The notes under the pieces: model-generated
The model's database searches: none
The model's input: only the letters and a program-made list of their open reading frames with translations
Told to the model about the DNA's origin: nothing
NCBI GenBank assembly: GCA_902805675.1
Contig: CADCTA010000002.1
Location: 1 to 64,000, forward strand
Direction of reading: 5' to 3'
DNA: 64,000 nucleotides
From: an uncultured Chthoniobacterales bacterium
Lineage (GTDB): Bacteria > Verrucomicrobiota > Verrucomicrobiia > Chthoniobacterales > UBA10450
Made by a program: the position numbers and the translations under genes
In this document: in pieces, positions 48,743 to 51,030 of the stretch
How the letters are laid out: each line of letters begins with the position of its first letter
How positions within the stretch are numbered: the first letter of the stretch is position 1

Positions 48743-49195
48743 ATGCCAAAGAAGACGAAGCGGAAACTGGCCCATCCGAAGCTGCCGATTCAGCGGCACC
48801 TGAATCTCCAGCACGAAGGTCGATACTTTGACCTGCGCGCTATTTTCGATCGGCTCAACGAGCGCCACTTCCGTGGCAAACTTCGTGGCTACAGGGTCGT
48901 CTGGGGCCGGCGCCGCAAACAACGTCCGAAAGAATACTTCGTGTTCGGCACCATCCAGGAAGAGGATCGCGTGATCCGCATCAATCCCTGGCTCGATCAG
49001 CCGTTCGTGCCGCGGTGGTTCATCCAGTACATCATGTACCACGAGATGCTGCATTCGGTGGTGCCTGACGAGATTGGCCCCGATGGCCGTCGCCGAGTGC
49101 ACACAGAAGAGTTCTATCGGCGCGAGAGGCAGTATCCCGGTTATCGGCGCGCGCGCCGCTGGGAAGAAGAGAATCTCGAGCGGTTTCTGCGCTGA
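48743..49195 (+). CDS. SprT-like zinc metalloprotease-type protein
   Basis: A 150-residue SprT-like protein. The N-terminus is strongly basic (MPKKTKRKLAHPKLP); the core begins FDLRAIFDRLNERHFRGKLR, has a WGRRRK/YFVFGTI strand region, INPWLDQPFVPRWFIQYIMY, and the zinc motif HEMLH (His100-Glu101-x2-His104), followed by a basic Tyr/Arg-rich tail. The third zinc ligand is probably the His in RRRVHTEEF. SprT-like domains act in DNA-protein crosslink repair in eukaryotes, whereas bacterial roles are unclear. The ATG at 48743 has GGAGA 7 nt upstream, better than the longer frame from 48683. Confidence 0.88.
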   Translation: MPKKTKRKLAHPKLPIQRHLNLQHEGRYFDLRAIFDRLNERHFRGKLRGYRVVWGRRRKQRPKEYFVFGTIQEEDRVIRINPWLDQPFVPRWFIQYIMYHEMLHSVVPDEIGPDGRRRVHTEEFYRRERQYPGYRRARRWEEENLERFLR

Positions 49196-49197
49196 AT

Positions 49198-49266
49198 TGT
49201 AGAGGCGCTAGTGTCAAACGCCTGCGCGTTTGCCGCCAGCAGGCCTTTGGCACAAACGCCTCTACA
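49198..49266. repeat. Short inverted repeat with perfect TGTAGAGGCG ends
   Basis: 69-bp element with perfect 10-bp ends TGTAGAGGCG / CGCCTCTACA and inner arms GTGTCAAACGCCTGC / GCAGGCCTTTGGCAC. It starts 3 bp after the SprT-like stop and ends one base before the mini-CdaR stop codon, so it may serve both genes as terminator. Confidence 0.9.
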
Positions 49267-49419
49267 CTAGCCGCGATCCCGCTGCAGCGTGCCCGGCCGG
49301 TAATCAGACGGTGAGGGTGTCATCGCTACGTTCTTTCTGATTAAGTACCAGAGGGTTGTCGCGAGGAGCAGGGCGATCACTTTCGCGCGCCAATTCTTCA
49401 GAATCAGTTTCTTCATCAT
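49267..49419 (-). CDS. Fifty-residue CdaR/YbbR-like membrane anchor without YbbR domains
   Basis: A 50-residue protein, MMKKLILKNWRAKVIALLLA, then TTLWYLIRKNV and a short polar tail ending in QRDRG. The N-terminus closely follows the start of CdaR/YbbR proteins (basic NW-K cytoplasmic end, one membrane span, W-Y/V exit), but the extracytoplasmic YbbR repeats are missing. AGGGA lies 5-6 nt before the ATG pair at 49419/49416, which favours a real gene. It overlaps the end of cdaA by 116 nt in another frame, in the usual cdaA-cdaR order. Either a remnant of cdaR cut short by the element at 49198, or a minimal membrane regulator of CdaA. Confidence 0.72.
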   Translation of the reverse strand: MMKKLILKNWRAKVIALLLATTLWYLIRKNVAMTPSPSDYRPGTLQRDRG

Positions 49420-50182
49420 AAGTCCCTGCCAGCAGCAGTTCGCCGATCCGCTTACGGAATGACTCCGGAGTGAAATTCCGTTCGATGCGGCGGCGATGGC
49501 AAAGCGAAATGCTGCCGGTCTCTTCTGACACAATCACCGCGATCGCGTCCGACTCCTCGGTAATCCCGAGCCCGGCGCGGTGACGCAGGCCGAGACTGCG
49601 ATCGAGCGTCTCGCGCTGGCTGACCGGAAAGATACAGGCGGCAGCGGCAAGTCGGCCGTTTCGCATGATGACACCACCGTCATGCAACGCGCTCTTCGGT
49701 TGAAAGAGCGTCAGCATCAGCTCGATGGAGAAATCCGCGTCGAGCATGACACCTGTCTCCTCGTACACGCGTATCGACGTGTCCCGCTCGATCGCGATCA
49801 GCGCGCCGAATTGCTTGTTCGCGAGCTGCGTGACGGCTTCCACAATGTCGTGCACCGTCTCGCGCTTTTCGCTCGTCAGGGAGAAGATCGGATGTCCGCC
49901 AAGCTCTGCTAATCCGCGGCGCAACTCCGGTTGAAAGATGACCACAAGGGCGACGGCGAGAAAGACGGAGAAGCTTCGGATAATCCAGCCGATGACCGTC
50001 AAATTCAGCAGCTGCGAGATCAGAGTCAGCGTGAGGAAAACGATCGCGAGGCCCGTCAGCACCTTCGCGCCGCGCGTGCCTTTGAAATACAGGTAGCCGT
50101 AGTAGATCCCGACGCTTAGGAGGATGATCTCGATCAGCCCACGCCAGCCATCGAGCCACGCCTGAATCGTCTCCTGGATCAT
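49304..50182 (-). CDS. cdaA: Diadenylate cyclase CdaA
   Basis: Membrane enzyme producing cyclic di-AMP from two ATP. The 292 residues have three N-terminal spans (about 15-33, 40-58, 65-83), then the DAC domain: ALIAIERDTSI, SALHDGGVIM with Asp168-Gly169-Gly170 at the DGA site, LAAAACIFPVS, and LGLRHRAGLGITEESDAIAV with Arg200-His201-Arg202 at the RHR site, and IVSEETGSISL. DGG and RHRAG are conservative variants of DGA and RHRAA, keeping the catalytic Asp and the ATP-binding RHR. A 60-residue acidic C-terminal tail is added. It overlaps folP by 4 nt and is followed by the mini-CdaR gene. Confidence 0.94.
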   Translation of the reverse strand: MIQETIQAWLDGWRGLIEIILLSVGIYYGYLYFKGTRGAKVLTGLAIVFLTLTLISQLLNLTVIGWIIRSFSVFLAVALVVIFQPELRRGLAELGGHPIFSLTSEKRETVHDIVEAVTQLANKQFGALIAIERDTSIRVYEETGVMLDADFSIELMLTLFQPKSALHDGGVIMRNGRLAAAACIFPVSQRETLDRSLGLRHRAGLGITEESDAIAVIVSEETGSISLCHRRRIERNFTPESFRKRIGELLLAGTYDEETDSEELARESDRPAPRDNPLVLNQKERSDDTLTV

Positions 50183-51030
50183 TCGGCCCTCCCCAGCAGA
50201 GCTTCGGTTGTGCGGAGCGCCGCCACGTTCGGCTTCACATCATGCACGCGCAGCACATCCGCGCCACGCTCACGTAGCAGCGCCGTCATCGCGATGGTTG
50301 GCGCGATGCGGTCTGAAATTTCGGAGGAGCCAATCACTTTAGCGAGGAAAGATTTCCGCGAGACACCGACGACCAGTGGCCGATCGTCGATCCGCAGCCG
50401 AGGGAGATTGCGAAGCAATTCGAGATTGTGCTCGAGCGTCTTTCCGAACCCGATTCCCGGGTCGAACGCAATTGCCATCGGATCAATGCCGCACTCTAGG
50501 GCGAGGGTATATTGTTGTCGAAAAAATTCCCCCACTTCCGCAACGACATCGTCGTAGTGCGGCGCTTTTTGCATCGTCCGCGGCGTGCCTTGCATGTGCA
50601 TGATGATGAAGGCGGCTTTGCCTTGCGCGGCGAGAGGCATCATGGCGGCGTCACTGCGGCCGCCGGAGATGTCGTTGATGATCGCCGCGCCGGCCTCCAA
50701 TGCTGCGCGTGCGACGCTCGCCTTCGCTGTGTCGATGGAAATCAGGATGTCGCTGCCGGCGCGCACTCGCTCGAGCACGGGAATCACACGGCGGAGTTCC
50801 TCATCTTCCGGAACCGACTCCGACCCTGGGCGAGTGGATTCACCACCGATGTCGATGATCGCTGCCCCATCCGCGGCCATCTCCAGGCCGTGCGCGATCG
50901 CCTTCTCGCGATCGAAGAACTCTCCGCCATCCGAGAACGAATCCGGCGTCACATTCAGCACGCCCATGATCTGTGCGCCTTGCGAGAACTCGATCGTCTT
51001 CTCGGCGATCTTCCATCGGGCGGCGCGCAT
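50179..51030 (-). CDS. folP: Dihydropteroate synthase
   Basis: Folate-pathway enzyme that joins p-aminobenzoate to dihydropterin pyrophosphate; the target of sulfonamides. The 283 residues include the two signatures IMGVLNVTPDSFSDGGEF and DIGGESTRPGSE, ISIDTAKASVARAALEAG, INDISGG, HMQGTPRTMQ, DPGIGFGKTLEHNLELL, VGVSRKSFL and the final RVHDVKPN. Its stop overlaps the cdaA start by 4 nt. Its start codon is back to back with the first possible ATG of rnr (51029), so the divergent regulatory region is short or lies inside coding sequence. Confidence 0.96.
   Translation of the reverse strand: MRAARWKIAEKTIEFSQGAQIMGVLNVTPDSFSDGGEFFDREKAIAHGLEMAADGAAIIDIGGESTRPGSESVPEDEELRRVIPVLERVRAGSDILISIDTAKASVARAALEAGAAIINDISGGRSDAAMMPLAAQGKAAFIIMHMQGTPRTMQKAPHYDDVVAEVGEFFRQQYTLALECGIDPMAIAFDPGIGFGKTLEHNLELLRNLPRLRIDDRPLVVGVSRKSFLAKVIGSSEISDRIAPTIAMTALLRERGADVLRVHDVKPNVAALRTTEALLGRAE

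Follow-up and report, generated by a model that had tools for sequence, protein, structure and literature searches.

The DNA analyzed here, hereafter the window, is a stretch of 64,000 nucleotides from an uncultured Chthoniobacterales bacterium. It carries on its minus strand the gene cdaA (49304 to 50182), coding for a diadenylate cyclase of 292 residues, and upstream of it folP (50179 to 51030, minus strand; dihydropteroate synthase, PF00809 E = 4e-87), with which it overlaps by 4 nt. The cyclase is of the CdaA type, matching TIGR00159 at 221 bits (cut-off, 188.8) and having both the DAC and the N-terminal membrane (CdaA_N) domains (PF02457 and PF19293). The usual diadenylate cyclase motif is DGA; in the CdaA proteins of this phylum (alignment A1), HDGG occupies that site, and the RHR motif is intact. 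At the end of cdaA, in the +1 frame and sharing 116 nt with it, lies an open reading frame (49267 to 49419, minus strand) for a protein of 50 residues, MMKKLILKNWRAKVIALLLATTLWYLIRKNVAMTPSPSDYRPGTLQRDRG, and in the family of the window about three-quarters of this frame is inside cdaA. The stop codon (49267 to 49269) directly adjoins an imperfect palindromic repeat of 69 bp (49198 to 49266), beyond which a gene for an SprT-like metallopeptidase (48743 to 49195, plus strand; PF10263 at 22.9 bits, just below the cut-off) converges on the locus. This convergence looks to be kept in the displayed relatives of the same family, and the SprT-like gene stands outside the cdaA/anchor system. In the genome of the window, glmM, whose product is another CdaA regulator, is on a different contig from cdaA; the genome also encodes a candidate c-di-AMP phosphodiesterase of the PgpH type.

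The short protein has a conserved core, N-W-x-A-K-x(6)-A-x(3)-W-x-L-I-[KR]-K-N (49330 to 49395, minus strand), formed by an N-terminal Asn-Trp/basic motif and a single hydrophobic span (about 49339 to 49380). In the class-wide alignment A3, Lys13 and Trp24 are invariant, and Asn9 and Ala20 are conserved in at least 90% of the sequences. The protein has no match among the Pfam and NCBIfam models. Translation probably begins at the second ATG (49416), giving 49 residues, because a methionine is kept at that position in 73 of 77 relatives. The preliminary description also credited the frame with a good ribosome-binding site. A purine-rich, Shine-Dalgarno-like AGGGA stretch is indeed found 5' of the start, but it is unconserved in the relatives displayed and is therefore weak evidence.

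The palindromic repeat has arms of 28 nt that are 86% complementary, and each of its strands would fold into a stable hairpin (z about -6). It may be a mobile element of the REP/MITE kind or else a terminator that works in both directions. It is a dispersed repeat, with several further matches elsewhere in the genome. BLAST against all fetched loci returned matches only in those of this genome, and the seven relatives displayed have no such element between the stop of the microprotein and the convergent SprT-like gene. The direct abutment of stop codon and palindrome is as first described, and from it the arrival of the element had been proposed to have cut cdaR short. However, the absence of YbbR domains and the adjoining element notwithstanding, a pseudogene remnant of cdaR severed in this way is essentially untenable, and truncation is ruled out, since the same ORF with the same end occurs in about 105 relatives, those compared lacking the element, while the frame is under strong purifying selection and the anchor-only state is common to many families. 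The element was inserted between two convergent stop codons and truncated nothing.

The relatives in question belong to a family that includes metagenome-assembled genomes titled Chthoniobacterales, Spartobacteria, and Candidatus Udaeobacter. About 105 of them have the short ORF, with 48 to 51 codons, in the identical frame and ending 31 to 40 nt past the cdaA stop; an alignment of 77 distinct loci is free of gaps in the region of the core. Since most of the ORF is within cdaA in this family, its conservation could be a by-product of constraint on the C terminus of the cyclase, with no protein made. The codon positions in the overlap speak against this explanation and rule out a non-coding frame. 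Position 2 of the microprotein codons coincides with position 3 of the cdaA codons, and the mean entropy at cdaA position 3 is 0.25 bits inside the overlap versus 1.48 upstream (77 aligned loci), whereas cdaA position 1, which is position 3 of the microprotein, still varies there (0.71). Furthermore, conservation in the overlap is lower for the cdaA frame (68% amino acid identity) than for the microprotein frame (83%). In other families, where the ORF is wholly or mostly outside cdaA, it is conserved nevertheless; pooled pN/pS values for these outside portions are mostly 0.07 to 0.5 by group, from small samples, and the 0.96 of one f13 pair says little, coming from just 57 nt outside the overlap. 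We thus regard a by-product of cdaA constraint as extremely improbable. Because the wobble positions of cdaA are frozen in the overlap, the microprotein frame is under purifying selection at the protein level, and comparative evidence indicates that it is translated.

CdaR (YbbR), the CdaA regulator of Firmicutes, has an N-terminal transmembrane anchor followed by three or four external YbbR domains. The anchor was compared with the ORF by means of a profile built from the N-terminal 75 residues of full-length CdaR sequences of other classes of the phylum (40 rows, two of them in wrong frames, which should only weaken the profile). Against 1,359 six-frame fragments of the window, this profile picked out the ORF with an E value of 5e-8, the next best fragment scoring 1.2. 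The likeness to a CdaR/YbbR membrane anchor, first noticed by eye, is therefore beyond chance, and judged from its sequence the ORF is homologous to the N-terminal membrane anchor of full-length CdaR. A search of the Protein Data Bank by sequence found no chain covering a CdaR anchor, and with the CdaR profile it returned YbbR domains only.

No YbbR-domain protein follows the ORF, as had been described, and the searches with PF07949 and the full-length CdaR profile found none elsewhere in the genome either. PF07949 gave no match at E ≤ 10 in the genome, which is 93% complete, or in the 50-residue protein. The full-length CdaR profile had a single match in the whole genome, this ORF itself (E = 0.006, profile positions 8 to 38). 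These results bear on whether the anchor could be one half of a split CdaR whose YbbR domains have been relocated to a separate gene. Parts of the cdaA locus can move, since in family f98 the anchor gene, of 54 codons, is unlinked from cdaA (L364, 1481 to 1645; L365, 614 to 778, here directly upstream of glmM). However, besides the negative searches in a nearly complete genome, no member of the class is among the listed PF07949-positive genomes of the phylum (166 of the 289 sampled have matches, those listed all being outside the class of the window), and a split protein is very unlikely. The 50-residue protein is a CdaR-derived anchor without the YbbR fold (PF07949). Since one defining feature of CdaR is missing, we call it a CdaR-derived, anchor-only CdaA partner rather than plain CdaR.

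The anchor-only state is no peculiarity of this locus but extends to most of the class. In the order of the window, most families examined have a short ORF between cdaA and glmM, and the same arrangement is found in two single-contig genomes of 0.9 Mb; its retention in such reduced genomes argues for selection on the ORF. Across the class, anchor-only ORFs follow cdaA in families f15, f16, f18, f19, f72, f77, f79, f90, and f102, and their products have 44 to 75 residues, with two outliers of 94 and 111. One f16 locus (L249) has some 740 extra nucleotides between cdaA and the anchor ORF, glmM still being next after the anchor. Other families of the class have proteins of 127 to 165 residues with one YbbR-like domain, and one family has a protein of 229; the one-domain forms match PF07949 with E values of 2e-6 (L242), 3e-4 (L244), and 0.007 (L259), the latter two below the curated cut-off. 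In other classes of the phylum, CdaR has about 310 to 345 residues. The groups labeled g34 and f8 may be Akkermansia and Xiphinematobacter, respectively.

The history of these states was read from a CdaA tree of 154 rows, computed from the first 262 residues so that the overlap was left out; it is a quick tree in which long branches meet. One clade of 87 rows (SH-aLRT, 97) is made up of rows in which the anchor stands alone, is fused, or is absent; the single row labeled full-length there (L136) is mislabeled, its locus being severed by a contig end. The one-domain form fills another clade, and anchor-only forms outside the large clade are those of f72/f77 and f103/f82. Between short and long forms the tree requires four changes, one of them due to L136. 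This distribution suggests that trimming to the anchor probably occurred two or three times.

A functional link to CdaA is suggested by co-occurrence, which was counted in 189 genomes of the class as raw numbers ignoring relatedness. TIGR00159 matched in 147 of these genomes and the anchor was found in 125, all of them with cdaA; none of the 42 genomes without cdaA had it. Of the 22 cdaA genomes without the anchor, five (f73) and several others have weak TIGR00159 matches that may not be CdaA. In some genomes of the order and class, L138, L291, L292, and further weak matches represent a second or divergent DAC-domain protein with no CdaR anchor beside it. Two small cdaA-bearing groups, f88 and two genomes of f13, have no detectable anchor, so the anchor is not strictly required.

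In three genera, the anchor is covalently fused to the C terminus of CdaA (L279, L335, and L287). These fusions occur in three genomes of genus g66, 98% to 99% identical and one of them a single contig, in G485, from a second genus of the same family (65% identical), and in G150, from another family. In family f94, which is also among the cdaA-bearing genomes without the anchor, the CdaA of L218 ends in a C-terminal hydrophobic segment of its own (RRLVRIGICLGLALVVWGIMGVVVAG) with glmM directly after it, and glmM is also close after cdaA in L224, L228, L229, and L234; this segment is possibly a diverged CdaA-anchor fusion. An AlphaFold2 model of the natural fusion L279 has a mean pLDDT of 85.9, with values mostly about 65 to 86 in the anchor helix (residues 284 to 316), and a fold search with the model had just the CdaA cyclase domain among its best matches. 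Coevolution between anchor and CdaA was dominated by invariant columns in a first version; against within-family shuffles, linked pairs exceeded the shuffled ones with no preference for the CdaA membrane domain, and no coevolution of the anchor with the CdaA membrane helices was detected beyond family structure. Together, the fusions and the co-occurrence suggest that the anchor binds the transmembrane region of CdaA.

The gene position is that of CdaR, with the ORF overlapping cdaA in the family of the window, whereas elsewhere in the order it is flanked by cdaA and glmM. As in the Firmicutes, the gene comes after cdaA and often before glmM, and its product has a homologous anchor, W..K..(A/S)LlLA...W, with a predicted contact to CdaA in the membrane. 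In contrast to the CdaR of Firmicutes, it is a microprotein of 44 to 75 residues, rather than some 310 or more, without any YbbR domain. The one-domain forms of the same class (L242, L244, and L259) share the anchor and the place between cdaA and glmM but retain the one YbbR-like domain that the microprotein lacks. CdaA-CdaR fusions are known in streptococci (PMC10243994); the fusions L279, L335, and L287 resemble them in joining the anchor covalently to CdaA and differ in carrying the anchor only, with no YbbR domains.

Taken together, the ORF most likely encodes a single-helix protein that acts in the membrane as a partner of CdaA. It is probable, and we state it with good confidence, that this protein is a natural minimal CdaR of a single span, which would have descended from CdaR/YbbR once every extracytoplasmic YbbR domain was lost and would modulate CdaA. 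Full-length CdaR is reported to bind CdaA via their transmembrane domains (PMC10243994), and in a ybbR mutant of Staphylococcus aureus two suppressors affect the third transmembrane helix of the cyclase (PMC5207132). On this literature, the streptococcal fusions included, we infer that the anchor alone would bind the CdaA membrane helices and tune or stabilize an active assembly. Inserted beside the N-terminal transmembrane helices of CdaA, as reported for full-length CdaR, it may determine how the cyclase packs in the membrane or oligomerizes, and hence its output, a modulation predicted to operate without an extracytoplasmic sensor domain. The effect may be either activation or inhibition; for CdaR, both an activating and a repressing role are on record, and its mode of action has been stated to be unclear (PMC8573169). 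The preliminary idea that a one-span protein may regulate c-di-AMP synthesis in this bacterium has gained support from the class-wide conservation, selection on the frame, anchor homology, strict co-occurrence with cdaA, and fusions.

The helix could, instead, be a structural subunit or an assembly or stability factor, a staple always bound to CdaA and conveying no signal. The lack of a sensory domain and the covalent fusion in three genera favor such a role, and overlapping genes could enforce equal synthesis of the two proteins; on the other hand, the anchor is usually a separate protein and is kept beside glmM even when parted from cdaA. We consider a constitutive staple a genuine, if tentative, possibility. 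Returning to the minimal modulator, we lean slightly toward a wider reading, in which the transmembrane helix would be the one part that no CdaR protein can dispense with, and this class would long have kept the helix alone, repeatedly shedding the external domains, as an intramembrane modulator without an extracytoplasmic sensor.

A membrane-only CdaR had been thought undescribed, and in the open-licence literature no description of an anchor-only CdaR was found, although an earlier one elsewhere is possible. With this finding, a large class of bacteria from the environment, and probably also from the gut, gains a conserved microprotein that has no name and escapes the Pfam and NCBIfam models. 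At 50 residues, the partner is of a size that suits co-expression with full-length CdaA, mutational scanning, and structural work on the two together, and the poorly understood mechanism of CdaR becomes easier to test. Natural forms of CdaR range from multi-domain to anchor-only, a series that separates the role of the membrane helix from that of the YbbR domains, and the anchor-only form across the class suggests that the helix is the part that matters.
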